Origin: Candidatus Altimarinota bacterium
Lineage (GTDB): Bacteria; Patescibacteriota; Gracilibacteria; BD1-5; UBA6164
Reading direction: 5' to 3'
Assembly (NCBI GenBank): GCA_010119095.1
Contig: SAAG01000005.1
Span: forward strand, 1-36,353
DNA length: 36,353 nucleotides
The number at the start of each line of letters is the position of its first letter. Position 1 is the first letter of the stretch. Made by a program: the position numbers and the translations under genes. The notes under the pieces are model-generated. The model worked only from the letters and a program-made list of their open reading frames with translations, was not told where the DNA came from and did not search any database. Of this stretch, positions 7,905 through 19,692 are shown piece after piece.

Positions 7905-8348
7905 TTAGTCCCTATACCTATCGGGATTTATTCTATTTCTAAAATTTACAATTTCTTTATCGTCTAATTCATTCAAATAATTATCTAATGTGATTTCTAA
8001 AATATATGTTAATATTTCATCCTCTCTATTTATATTTTTTTCTTTTTTATAATTTTTAAAAAAATATTCTTTTCCGTTACATATAACTCCATTAATTATA
8101 TCTCCTTTTTTATTTTCATCATATACAATATTGTCTTGTGAAAATTCTTTTTCTAAATATCTATCAAAATTAATATATCCTGTTTCATTCATCCAACTGT
8201 ATATATCAATATATTTATTACAATTAATTAATTTTAAAAACTTAATTCTTGTAATTTCTTTTACAGTTTCTACTTTCCAGCAATCTGAACAAATGCCGCC
8301 GTCTCTTTCAAATCTACATTCATTACAAGCATTTTTTATTTTAATCAT
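7905..8348 (-). CDS. Cys-rich N-terminus protein, first gene of the leftward operon
   Basis: The start at 8348 (MIKIKNACNECRFERDGG) is supported by AAAAGGAGGGAACGAAA; a longer frame to 8381 begins inside the likely leader. The first 25 residues hold CNECRF and CSDCWK, a four-Cys zinc site. The rest (about 120 aa) is acidic and helical (ILTYILEITLDNYLNELDDKE). As first gene after the leftward promoter it is probably expressed early. It may be a host-takeover or anti-defence protein, but there is no specific match. Confidence 0.6.
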   Translation of the reverse strand: MIKIKNACNECRFERDGGICSDCWKVETVKEITRIKFLKLINCNKYIDIYSWMNETGYINFDRYLEKEFSQDNIVYDENKKGDIINGVICNGKEYFFKNYKKEKNINREDEILTYILEITLDNYLNELDDKEIVNFRNRINPDRYRD

Positions 8349-8383
8349 TTTCGTTCCCTCCTTTTTTCGTCGCTTACACACAT

Positions 8384-8412
8384 AATATAATATAAAAATA
8401 ATTAAATGTCAA
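8384..8412 (-). promoter_or_regulatory. Leftward early promoter
   Basis: On the minus strand TTGACA (8412-8407) and TATATT (8389-8384) are separated by 17 bp, about 35 nt upstream of the first leftward gene and its AGGAGGG site. This fits a sigma-70-type promoter driving the whole operon 8348 to 896. Confidence 0.6.
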
Positions 8413-8433
8413 ATATTTTTTAATAATTATTTT
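8395..8433. repeat. Inverted repeat between divergent promoters, possible operator
   Basis: AAAATAATTA (8395-8404) and TAATTATTTT (8424-8433) are perfect inverted 10-mers 19 bp apart, overlapping the spacer and flanking the -35 of the leftward promoter. This is a sensible place for a regulator site, perhaps for the HTH protein encoded next door. In such AT-rich DNA, chance repeats of this kind are not rare. Confidence 0.35.
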
Positions 8434-8442
8434 TTTATATTC

Positions 8443-8470
8443 TTGACTTTTTATTTTTTATTTATTAAAT
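8443..8470 (+). promoter_or_regulatory. Candidate rightward promoter for the HTH gene
   Basis: TTGACT (8443-8448), with TTAAAT or TAAATT (about 8465-8471) as -10 at 16-17 bp, lies 30 bp upstream of the ATG at 8502. The -35 is good and the -10 poor. Confidence 0.4.
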
Positions 8471-8501
8471 TATATTTAATTCTTAAAAATGGAGAAAAAA
8501 A

Positions 8502-8687
8502 ATGAAAGAAATAAAAAAAGAACAAATAGAGGAATTGCTTAATAGTGGGAAATCTATAAATGAAATTTTAAAAATTTTAAAAATATCACAAAATAAATAT
8601 TATGAATTAAGAAAAGAAGCTGGTATTTTTAAAAGGAAAAAAGGAGCTGGGAGACCAAAAGGAAGTTATACAATTAAATTAGTATAA
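8502..8687 (+). CDS. Small HTH DNA-binding protein, 61 aa
   Basis: The product MKEIKKEQIEELLNSGKSIN... has a helix-turn-helix at about residues 15-42 (GKSINEILKILKISQNKYYE), followed by a basic tail with the RKKGAGRPKGS AT-hook-like motif. The layout resembles resolvase-type or Cro-sized HTH regulators. It is transcribed divergently from the early operon and ended by its own terminator, as expected for a regulator of the adjacent operator region. A repressor or antirepressor role is inferred from position. Confidence 0.68.
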   Translation: MKEIKKEQIEELLNSGKSINEILKILKISQNKYYELRKEAGIFKRKKGAGRPKGSYTIKLV

Positions 8688-8690
8688 ATA

Positions 8691-8724
8691 AAAGGCAGTG
8701 GCAAGTCCCTTGCCTGCCTTTTTT
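8691..8724 (+). terminator. Terminator after the small HTH gene
   Basis: AAAGGCA and GGCAAG (8691-8705) pair with CTTGCC and TGCCTTT around a TCC loop, with only a GT bulge. The stem is followed by T6. It lies 4 nt after the HTH stop codon. Confidence 0.88.
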
Positions 8725-8743
8725 AAATTTTATGGAGATAAAT

Positions 8744-8896
8744 ATGATATGTCAAGTTTGTGGAAAAGAAGTTGAGAATATATCTGATTTATGGGAAGAT
8801 ATATATTGTCAAGATCGTTGGGAAGATTATTGTAGTGAAGAATATGAAAAAGAAATAAACAAATTACCAAAATGGTGTTTTCAAAATAATTATTGA
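8744..8896 (+). CDS. 50-aa CxxC protein
   Basis: ATG at 8744 follows TATGGAGATAA. The product starts MICQVCGKEVENISDLWEDI and continues with CQDRWEDYCSEEYEKEI, ending PKWCFQNNY. CxxC plus later Cys residues form a zinc-ribbon-like pattern. It has its own ribosome binding site between a terminator and the structured RNA; promoter not obvious. Function unknown. Confidence 0.6.
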   Translation: MICQVCGKEVENISDLWEDIYCQDRWEDYCSEEYEKEINKLPKWCFQNNY

Positions 8897-8919
8897 AAAT
8901 TTGTAAAAAATATTATAAT
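8893..8919 (+). promoter_or_regulatory. Candidate promoter of the structured RNA
   Basis: A consensus TATAAT (8914-8919) with TTGAAA (8893-8898) at 15 bp, which is short, lies just upstream of the stem-loop RNA. Transcription would start near 8926. Confidence 0.4.
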
Positions 8920-8926
8920 ATATAGA

Positions 8927-9073
8927 TACCAAAATATTTTACCCTCAAGTAAAATAAATAAAAAAACACACACAAATTAAGTCCTAATTTTGATTAGGCA
9001 GAGCGACTATATTTTTGAGGGGTATAGTCTTTTTGTGTGGGCTCTGTCTAATTAAGGTTAGGACTTTTTTTTT
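8927..9073 (+). ncRNA. Highly structured phage RNA with 26-bp stem and possible pseudoknots
   Basis: AAGTCCTAA...CAGAGC (8979-9004) pairs over 26 bases with GCTCTG...TTAGGACTT (9041-9066) without interruption if G-U pairs are allowed (four of them). The G-U pairs exist only in the rightward transcript. Directly inside it GACTATA (9005-9011) pairs with TATAGTC (9023-9029). The loop TTGAGGG (9015-9021) is complementary to CCCTCAA upstream (8942-8948). CACACAAA (8969-8976) is complementary to TTTGTGTG (9032-9039) in the internal bulge. Both would be pseudoknots. T9 follows the stem, so the 3' end is also a terminator. No known RNA class is recognised. Position before the replication genes suggests a regulatory or anti-host RNA. 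Confidence 0.7.
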
Positions 9074-9093: not shown

Positions 9094-9122
9094 TTGACAA
9101 TATTTTGTAAAAATTATAGTAT
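9094..9122 (+). promoter_or_regulatory. Promoter of the replication operon
   Basis: A perfect TTGACA (9094-9099) is followed by TATAGTATAAA. The hexamer TAGTAT (9117-9122) lies at 17 bp spacing and TATAGT (9115-9120) at 15. It lies just after the RNA terminator and about 20 nt before the first replication gene. Confidence 0.6.
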
Positions 9123-9128
9123 AAAAAT

Positions 9129-9144
9129 ACGAGGTGCGAGATGA
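9129..9144 (+). promoter_or_regulatory. Translation start region, copy 1 of a 16-nt duplicated sequence
   Basis: ACGAGGTGCGAGATGA contains the ribosome binding site GAGGTG and the start of the 62-aa gene. The identical 16 bases recur at 9295-9310 at the start of the initiator gene. Confidence 0.7.
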
Positions 9145-9329
9145 ACAATCAAGAAATTATTAAACAATTTTCTAAACATTTTAAAAGGCTTGAAGAAGAC
9201 TTATCACAAATTAATGGATTTACTCCTTTAATGAAAAAAGTTATTTCTTTAAATTTAAAAAATTTAGAAAAAGATATTTTAGAAATTACACAAAACGAGG
9301 TGCGAGATGACGGATACTACAATAAATAA
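9141..9329 (+). CDS. 62-aa helical protein before the initiator gene
   Basis: The product (MNNQEIIKQFSKHFKRLEED...) is all helical, with Phe/Leu heptad-like spacing and an acidic end. No motif is recognised. Its last 23 nt overlap the initiator gene, and both start sites use the same 16-nt sequence, so their translation is probably regulated together. It may be a partner or modulator of the initiator. Confidence 0.65.
   Translation: MNNQEIIKQFSKHFKRLEEDLSQINGFTPLMKKVISLNLKNLEKDILEITQNEVRDDGYYNK
9295..9310 (+). promoter_or_regulatory. Translation start region, copy 2 of a 16-nt duplicated sequence
   Basis: Identical to 9129-9144 and located at the start (ATG 9307) of the replication initiator inside the end of the preceding gene. 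Confidence 0.7.
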
Positions 9330-10185
9330 AAATCCAAAAAAAATTACATCAAAAATTTATCCACTAGACATTTTAATTTATCAAAGAGTTAAATATTTTG
9401 TAGAGCAAAAAGATGGGTTTTGTTATGAAAGCAATCTATCTTTATCTAAGGCTTTAAATAGAAGCACACAAAGGATTTCAATGTCAATCTCAAAATTAAT
9501 TAAATTAGGATATTTAATTAATAATGGCACTATTCAACAAAGAGAACTAAAAATAACAGAAAAAAAACTCAATTATTACTTTAACAAAAACGATATAGAC
9601 TTTAACAAAAACGATATAGACTTTAACAAAATCAATACAACGACTTTAACCCAAATACTACTTTACTTTAACAAAAACGATAAAGAGACTTTAACAAAAG
9701 CGATAAGAGACTTTAACAAAACCGCGATGCAAGTATTAGATATAGTATTAGATATTAATAAAGAGAGTAAAGAATTAAGTATTAAAGAAAAAGAAAATTT
9801 TAGTTTTTTAAATGAAGAAGAGGAAGAAAAAGAACGAAAAAGAAAAGAATTTGAATATTACGAAAAAAAAGCAGAAGAAAGAAGAAAGCAAGATGAAGAA
9901 AAAAAAATAAAAGAAAAAGAGGAATTTAAAAAGAATAAAATAAAAGCTGAAGAATATAGAAAAAATAATATTGATAGAATTTATAAACAGATAAAAGAAA
10001 GCCACGATATAGAAGAAATAAATAAATTATTTCAGTCTATAGAACATAAAATCCCAAAAGATTTATTTTTTGCGAATGATGAGCGAAAGCGAGTTATAAA
10101 AGAGATTGAAGACATAGAACTTGAAAAAAAGAAAAAAAGAACTTTAGAATTTTTGCAAAGGAGCCAGTATGAAGCACAATATTGA
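9307..10185 (+). CDS. Replication initiator (winged HTH N-terminus)
   Basis: This is a 292-aa protein. Residues about 15-80 form a winged HTH (YESNLSLSKALNRSTQRISM, SKLIKLGYLI), as in phage replisome organisers and plasmid RepA-type initiators. Residues 91-141 are encoded by the iteron-like DNA repeats and read FNKNDIDFNKNDIDFNK and variants. This linker is followed by a long highly charged Glu/Lys coiled coil (residues 160-270), likely the helicase-loader contact. The DnaB-type helicase gene follows with a 17-nt overlap. The arrangement, an initiator with its origin inside the gene and a helicase next door, parallels lambda O-P. Confidence 0.78.
   Translation: MTDTTINKNPKKITSKIYPLDILIYQRVKYFVEQKDGFCYESNLSLSKALNRSTQRISMSISKLIKLGYLINNGTIQQRELKITEKKLNYYFNKNDIDFNKNDIDFNKINTTTLTQILLYFNKNDKETLTKAIRDFNKTAMQVLDIVLDINKESKELSIKEKENFSFLNEEEEEKERKRKEFEYYEKKAEERRKQDEEKKIKEKEEFKKNKIKAEEYRKNNIDRIYKQIKESHDIEEINKLFQSIEHKIPKDLFFANDERKRVIKEIEDIELEKKKKRTLEFLQRSQYEAQY
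9578..9728 (+). repeat. Seven iteron-like repeats, probable replication origin
   Basis: The unit ACTTTAACAAAAACGATA is exact at 9578-9595, 9599-9616 and 9665-9682. Near copies begin at 9620, 9643, 9688 and 9710. Starts are spaced 21, 21, 23, 22, 23 and 22 bp, about two helical turns, so all lie on the same face of the helix. An AT-only-like stretch follows at about 9730-9800, suitable for strand opening. Spacing, direct orientation and location inside an initiator gene fit initiator-binding iterons. Confidence 0.72.
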
Positions 10186-11461
10186 TTATGAAAAAGCAGT
10201 ATTAGCTTGTATTTTAACATCAAAAATTACTGAATATGAAAAAATATTTGATATTTTAAATGAAGATAATTTTTATTTTGACAGCCATAAATATATATTT
10301 TTAGCGATGAATGAGCTTTTTGAAAAAAATATAGAATTAGATATTTTAATTTTAACTGAAAAATTAAAAAAAATGAAAAAATTAGATAAGATAGGAGGTA
10401 TTGAATATTTAAAAGTTATTTTAAATTCTGAAACTACTATAGCACATAGTATTTTTTATGCTGAAGAACTAAAAAATATTAGTATTAGACGAAAAATTGA
10501 AAATAAATTAAATATTGCATTAGAAAATATATATTCTTGTGAAACATTAGAAGAATTAGACTTAGAAATTGAATGTAAAAAAGAGAATAAAGAACTACAA
10601 AAAATAGATAAATTGATAAGTGAAACTATAGAAAATTATGAAGATGTAAAAAATGGCGACTATAATTTTATTCAGTTAGGATTCCCAAAAATAGACGAAA
10701 AGATTAGATATAGACAAGGAACACTGAATATTTTGGCGGCTGAAACTTCAATAGGAAAAACGGCTTTTGCTTTGAATATAGTTTTGAATAACCTGAAAAA
10801 AGGGAAGAAAGTATTATATTTTAGTCTTGAAATGACAAATATTGAAATAATGAATAGATTGCTTGCTTGTTATTGTGATTTAAATATTTCAAAAATTACA
10901 GACGGAAAATTGACTGATATGGAAATTACAAAAATGCACTCACGATCATTTGATTTTTTAAAATTTAAATTTTTTTGCGATGATACAGCAGGGTTAAGTT
11001 TTGAAGAAATATCACGGAAAATTAATAAAGAAAATGAAAAAGAAAAAGTAGATTTTGTAGTTATAGACCATTTAGGATTAATAAAAACTGATAACACAAA
11101 AGATACAAAAAACGAAAAAGTTGGAAAAATAACAATGGGATTAAAAAACCTATCAAAAACACTAAATTTTCCTATTTTGGTATTAGCACAGTTAAACAGA
11201 GGAGAAGCATCAGAGCAAAGCAAACCGCCAACATTGAGAAGATTGCGGGACAGCGGAAACATAGAACAAGATGCTGATACTGTAATGTTTTTATATAGGA
11301 AAAATAGGCAAGAACAAATTACAGATATAATGATTGAAAAAAACAGAAACGGAGAACTTGCAAAATTAGAAGTTGTATTCTCTGGATGGAAACAAAAATT
11401 CACAGAATTAACAAATTATAATGGAGGATATAATGGATATTTGGGAGAAAAAAGTAAATGA
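10169..11461 (+). CDS. dnaB: DnaB-type replicative helicase
   Basis: The 430-aa product has the DnaB N-terminal helical domain (residues 1-100; VLACILTSKITEY, DSHKYIFLAMNELFEKN, GGIEYLKVI). The RecA-like domain follows, with Walker A ETSIGKTAF at about residue 191, LYFSLEM, Walker B VDFVVIDHLGL, LVLAQLNR and the arginine-finger region RDSGNIEQDADTVMFLYR. It unwinds the replication fork as a hexamer. The first Walker A residue is Ala or Glu where many relatives have Gly-x-Pro, but GKT is intact. Overlap with the initiator gene indicates coupled translation. Confidence 0.93.
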   Translation: MKHNIDYEKAVLACILTSKITEYEKIFDILNEDNFYFDSHKYIFLAMNELFEKNIELDILILTEKLKKMKKLDKIGGIEYLKVILNSETTIAHSIFYAEELKNISIRRKIENKLNIALENIYSCETLEELDLEIECKKENKELQKIDKLISETIENYEDVKNGDYNFIQLGFPKIDEKIRYRQGTLNILAAETSIGKTAFALNIVLNNLKKGKKVLYFSLEMTNIEIMNRLLACYCDLNISKITDGKLTDMEITKMHSRSFDFLKFKFFCDDTAGLSFEEISRKINKENEKEKVDFVVIDHLGLIKTDNTKDTKNEKVGKITMGLKNLSKTLNFPILVLAQLNRGEASEQSKPPTLRRLRDSGNIEQDADTVMFLYRKNRQEQITDIMIEKNRNGELAKLEVVFSGWKQKFTELTNYNGGYNGYLGEKSK

Positions 11462-19618: not shown

Positions 19619-19651
19619 TTTTTTTAAATATTTAGGAATAATCAAATATTG

Positions 19652-19692
19652 AAGTCCTATCTTAGCGATTGCTAGGGTAGGACTTTTTTTTT
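19652..19692 (+). terminator. Terminator with 15-bp perfect stem
   Basis: AAGTCCTATCTTAGC (19652-19666) and GCTAGGGTAGGACTT (19671-19685) form an unbroken 15-bp stem (two G-U) around GATT, followed by T9. The outer eight bases equal those of the structured RNA at 8979 and 9059. It lies within the head operon, so it probably reduces downstream expression without stopping it. Confidence 0.85.

Follow-up and report, generated by a model that had tools for sequence, protein, structure and literature searches.

Between a putative regulator gene and the replication genes of a phage contig lies a segment of 147 nt (8927-9073) whose rightward transcript is predicted to form an unusually long hairpin, with two loops complementary to sites in its own 5' flank. 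This raises the question of whether the segment acts as an RNA in its own right or simply ends transcription, and what its two loops may recognize. The window, meaning the whole stretch of DNA analysed, is 36,353 bases long and constitutes the whole contig of a phage with a contractile tail.

Structure of the predicted RNA

The predicted small RNA (8927-9073, plus strand) is about 145 nt long. The 147-nt sequence has a minimum free energy of -50.4 kcal/mol against -24.1 for shuffled sequences (z -7.8; equalled by 0 of 200 shuffles), while the opposite strand folds more weakly (-33.8, z -4.1), and the hairpin is the longest in the window. A preliminary description of the locus held that its stem is unbroken only when G-U pairs are counted in the rightward transcript. 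This is indeed the case, as 8979-9004 and 9041-9066 form 26 consecutive pairs, four of them G-U, all of which are standard on the rightward strand. The stem carries an apical hairpin (9005-9011/9023-9029) with the loop UUUUUGAGGGG (9012-9022), followed by a 3' bulge, UUUUUGUGUGG (9030-9040). At its 3' end the RNA runs into the U-tract of an intrinsic terminator (9067-9073; the DNA reads T9 over 9065-9073), and the terminator-type end proposed earlier is thus present as U9.

The 5' tail contains a further element, missed in the preliminary description, namely an 8-bp hairpin (HP1, 8935-8942/8949-8956) with pair probabilities of 0.87-1.0 and a tail-fold p of 0.0005. Its loop, CCUCAA (8943-8948), is complementary to the apical loop along its full length. 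Both complementarities described earlier were found at the same positions. The first tail element, CCCUCAA (8942-8948), matches UUGAGGG (9015-9021) in the apical loop, and the second, the linker CACACAAA (8969-8976), matches UUUGUGUG (9032-9039) in the 3' bulge. Taken singly, the apical-loop match is of modest strength (p 0.009 to 0.05; 0.25 under dinucleotide shuffling of the loop only) and the bulge match is weak (p 0.06-0.10); jointly, the two give p values of about 0.0005-0.008 depending on the statistic, and 0.0005 under tail shuffling.

The preliminary description considered two pseudoknots possible. For the linker and the bulge, geometry suggests that pairing in cis would be impossible while the 26-bp stem is intact, because the 2-nt linker would have to span 26 bp (about 70 Å). 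This match would thus reflect pairing in trans, an alternative fold formed before the stem closes, or, given its individual p value, partly chance. Overall, the evidence supports 8927-9073 as a real RNA-level structure, absent from Rfam, and as a candidate regulator. Of the roles suggested earlier, that of a regulator is retained in this form, while those of a decoy or part of a switch gained no support of their own.

Host contig and surroundings of the RNA

PHROGs matches in the window include tail sheath, head protease, scaffold, major head protein and baseplate genes, and further genes encode a terminase, a DnaB-like helicase, an Erf annealing protein and a YopX-like protein. A TGA stop ends 15 of the 59 listed genes. 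In the 1.5-Mb genome of the same bin, long open frames appear in the other sampled contig only with TGA as a sense codon. The same holds for most loci sampled from that genome's family, but not for the window. Since the window stops at TGA and the bin genome and most loci of its family read it as sense, the phage contig is probably misbinned.

The location reported earlier, between a regulator and the replication genes, agrees with an HTH-like open reading frame upstream (8502-8687; weak HMM match) and the rep and DnaB genes downstream (9307-11461). A consensus scan placed a promoter-like site directly ahead of the RNA (8893-8921, plus strand; TTGAAA-17-TAATAT), with an alternative -10 element, TATAAT (8914-8919), at a 15-nt spacing, and another ahead of the replication operon (9094-9122, plus strand; TTGACA-17-TAGTAT, 10/12 matches). 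Such matches are equally frequent in shuffled sequence, and these sites are therefore suggestive only.

Several other features of the window were observed. Two near-identical 19-nt ribosome-binding segments ending in CGAGGTGCGAGATGA (9126-9144 and 9292-9310) precede two successive genes, and repeat units resembling ACTTTAACAAAAACGATA, seen by eye within the rep gene (9590-9730), may be origin iterons. A 16-bp terminator (19651-19686) lies directly ahead of the head protease gene. It has a base in common with the RNA stem, AAGTCCTA/TAGGACTT, and this octamer is found nowhere else in the window.

Search for related RNAs

Sequence searches with the window RNA gave no match among phages or plasmids, in 99 relatives of the bin genome or, by exact pattern, in viral contigs, and a pattern with both sets of loop letters gave 18 chance matches in viral contigs, none with the fold. 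Protein searches with DnaB, rep, HTH and terminase alone revealed no close phage; distant terminase relatives were obtained from alignments, with a best identity of 53%. Thus, neither a close relative of the RNA nor one of the phage emerged from the sequence and protein searches, and none of the homologues was near enough to follow covariation in the window stem column by column. A covariance model of the window RNA matched the RNA itself, the complementary strand and the 19651 terminator but nothing else, and in 39 related virus records it gave no significant match. In Rfam, the window RNA had no match at gathering score, and the weak matches below it (rli60, snoRNAs, microRNAs and others) were taken as chance. 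The RNA svsR (PLoS Pathog 2026, PMC12803456) is a different RNA.

Relatives were also sought by scanning related phage DNA, about 4 Mb overall, for a long stem followed by a U-tract. The first scan (252 loci, 3.4 Mb) used stem and U-tract as its sole criteria, and the two stems taken from it, in L215 and L218, were chosen before their complementarities were examined. From their sample numbers, we take both to be rumen phage contigs. Wider scans added L030, an IMG/VR contig, and Idiomarinaceae phage 1N2-2, and a sequence search with the 1N2-2 RNA led to Marinomonas phage P12026 (74% identical). In a strict scan of 4.1 Mb, fixed criteria gave 13 long-stem terminators in real DNA. Five of these combined p <= 0.014 with an element inside a hairpin loop of the tail, and they are the five members with both matches; none of the eight in reversed DNA or the three in shuffled DNA did so. 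A relaxed scan did not separate real from reversed DNA (seven and five matches, respectively), and the strict hairpin-loop version was therefore relied on. As the scan thresholds were tuned underway, these counts serve as support and not as a formal test.

RNAs of the same design in other phages

At least five other phages (L215, L218, L030, 1N2-2 and P12026) carry an RNA of the same design, with different letters in each. The HP1 loop matches the 3' bulge in all five, and the linker matches the apical loop in all but P12026. These complementarities read UCCCUUCU/AGAAGGGA and UCACAGAUAAA/UUUAUCUGUGA in L218, UUCCAUC/GAUGGAA and CCUCAAAC/GUUUGAGG in L215, CUGCCA/UGGCAG and GACUCUGU/ACAGAGUC in L030, and GUGAGAA/UUCUCAC and UUAGAGAA/UUCUCUAA in 1N2-2. 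Relative to 1N2-2, P12026 shows a compensatory change in the first pair, to GUGAUAA/UUAUCAC, and its second match is lost, or present only as a G-U-rich one seen by eye. The two helices have p values of 0.0003-0.006 for each of the five members with both matches, the window RNA among them. Among all 720 possible assignments of tails to loops, that of own tail to own loops is the best, each RNA fitting itself better than the others. The combined Fisher value of 2.5e-9 is not a clean test, since complementarity served as a criterion in finding some of the members.

The cleanest evidence for maintained complementarity comes from L215 and L218. These phages are about 98% identical on both sides of the locus, with identical promoter and stem base; their sequences diverge in the HP1 loop, in the linker, in both the apical loop and the bulge, and in the mid-stem, and complementarity is nevertheless kept. 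The preliminary description had suggested selection on the RNA and had proposed a comparison of related phages for compensatory changes. The suggestion is upheld by a fold far beyond that of shuffles and by complementarities kept with different letters, and the comparison gave the anticipated result in kind, in that other phages retain both complementarities.

The surroundings of these RNAs vary. At 8000-8800 (minus strand) of L215 and L218, an island of about 0.9 kb, comprising the RNA and the part downstream, is wholly different, with an HNH-like open reading frame in L218 (about 460 nt downstream of the RNA) and an unrelated one of 61 aa in L215. An HNH_3 endonuclease gene directly follows the RNA in 1N2-2 (L299 8283-8348) and P12026 (L305 2501-2619). 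The L030 RNA lies upstream of an antirepressor gene with KilAC and Rha domains, and an Rfam Betaproteobacteria-1 RNA (RF02932; L030 4553-4673) is located directly after the C4-like RNA and before that gene.

Comparison with C4 and other phage RNAs

Proteobacterial phages are the known source of C4 antisense RNAs, which contribute to immunity in P1 and P7. In P1, the leader sites a1 and then b1 are annotated ahead of c4; from a predicted fold of c4, we placed a' in an unpaired segment just ahead of the stem's 3' strand, and b' at the apex, in the loop. The window RNA resembles these RNAs (RF01695, C4; RF03163, c4-a1b1) in having two short leader sites complementary to two loops, and a long stem. 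It has the same topology, namely a long closing stem with one recognition loop at the apex (9005-9029, the position of b') and the other before the 3' strand (9030-9040, the position of a'). The C4 order, in which the first site matches the 3' segment and the second the apical loop, is found in L215, L218, L030 and 1N2-2 and is swapped in the window. Tested with the same two-helix statistic, P1 itself gives p = 0.036. The RNA lies upstream of an antirepressor gene in L030, as in P1, and of a replication gene in the window; in P1, the genes that follow c4 are icd, ant, kilA and repL. Thus, the earlier view of an undescribed RNA stands as far as Rfam is concerned, but the anatomy has a precedent in the a1-a' and b1-b' pairs of P1 and P7.

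There are also differences. The RNAs described here have stems of 20-32 bp that end in a terminator. The Rfam C4 and c4-a1b1 models did not match the window, L030, 1N2-2 or P12026 RNAs even at E <= 10, whereas P1, as positive control, scored 68.8 and 51 bits, respectively. P1 has a tetraloop hairpin that separates the 5' strand from the b' hairpin, and the window fold has none. As to the 5' processing by RNase P at GGW that is expected of a C4 RNA, the window stem starts with AAGUCC. No target resembling a2/b2, which would lie at a ribosome-binding site, was found in the 200 nt downstream of the window RNA (p = 0.2), and elsewhere in five phage genomes the best other site was no better than with shuffled loops. 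Because it has no model match, no tetraloop hairpin and no a2/b2 site beyond chance, the window RNA is not a member of Rfam C4 as defined. As a candidate target of the tail, the leftward early leader paired best of 60 starts (-24.0 vs -19.4; p of about 0.04 across all starts), but the UGUGUGU of this leader is located at or upstream of the point where transcription is expected to begin, and this target is therefore not claimed.

Other phage RNAs offer partial parallels. The CI immunity RNA of satellite phage P4 pairs with its own leader sites upstream of the replication operon and acts on leader termination. The C4-derived sRNAs of Acinetobacter baumannii have a stem-loop with a loop of 6-7 nt (Region 1) upstream of the C4 part and an a' loop that is the variable, specificity-giving region; these sRNAs are recognized by the C4 model of Rfam and reportedly undergo processing at a GGW motif (PMC5320573). 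The window RNA likewise has an upstream stem-loop, but lacks the C4 match, and its stem starts with AAG. The OOP RNA of lambda, which is antisense to cII (PMC12197685), is also a short terminated phage RNA beside replication genes; the window RNA differs in being co-directional with the genes and antisense to none.

On its anatomy, the window RNA is best read as a predicted variant of the C4/a1b1 kind with the order of its tail sites swapped. We estimate a probability of roughly 60%, by analogy, that 8927-9073 encodes an independently transcribed, terminator-capped antisense RNA working like the c4/a1b1 system of P1 and P7. In such an RNA, the long stem would display two single-stranded recognition loops, the apical loop and the 3' bulge, and the site complementary to each would be present as a copy in the 5' tail, in one case within a small hairpin loop. 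The loops, as the putative recognition surface, may pair in trans with targets resembling the tail, possibly in the host or in rival phages. The tail would then be a built-in copy of the target, and by pairing with the loops of its own RNA species it could limit or self-tune the RNA. We infer from these parallels that the window RNA is transcribed, acts in trans and has a regulatory or immunity role.

Alternative explanations

The maintenance of complementarity under changing letters may also be read without reference to c4. The phage RNAs could form a self-recognising family, in which the tail of one molecule pairs with the loops of another of the same RNA species. With letters that diversify among near-identical phages, the RNA would act as a self/non-self marker (for example, in superinfection exclusion or in control of a linked HNH gene). 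We consider this unlikely.

The main rivals to the antisense reading are self-assembly and attenuation. In the former, the RNA would be structural, with the loops of one molecule pairing with the tail of another to give dimers or chains, or, in the four members of canonical order, would adopt a compact fold in cis in which the apical hairpin bends back to meet the tail. In five phage genomes, both loops find their best partner in the RNA's own tail (with the next site about as good in G157), matches within an RNA are better than those between members, and the linker pairing of the window appears barred in cis with the stem intact. These observations all fit self-assembly, but the geometry is reasoning and not modelling, and P1 c4 has the same self-complementarity yet acts as an antisense RNA. 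Self-assembly as the function of the RNA thus seems quite unlikely.

Alternatively, the element could act on the downstream gene as a conditional terminator (attenuator), with tail-loop pairing during transcription delaying closure of the stem. This is consistent with 1N2-2 and P12026, in which the HNH endonuclease gene starts at most about 20 nt past the U-tract and lacks an obvious separate promoter, and with the late terminator of the window (19651-19686), which shares the AAGTCCTA base and lies just ahead of the head protease gene. However, the next gene is more than 200 nt away in L215, L218 and L030, and the promoter-like site at 9094-9122, just past the window terminator, argues in particular against a simple attenuator of the replication genes. 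Attenuation is, on balance, improbable. A plain strong intrinsic terminator of the regulator operon, with complementarities due to chance in A-/U-rich sequence, would suit the low-complexity tail, the p value of the bulge match alone and the second window terminator with the same stem base, but the joint p of 0.008 or less, the HP1 hairpin and the four other phages with a double complementarity of this kind make it very unlikely.

Implications

If the RNAs described here work alike, the C4 kind would be much wider than Rfam shows, extending to AT-rich, rumen and marine phages, and its members would have escaped sequence models because their recognition letters turn over. The near-identical rumen phages L215 and L218, with their different letters, would constitute a natural experiment on specificity set by RNA. 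The rule that two tail sites match the apical loop and the 3' bulge may offer a way to find further members.
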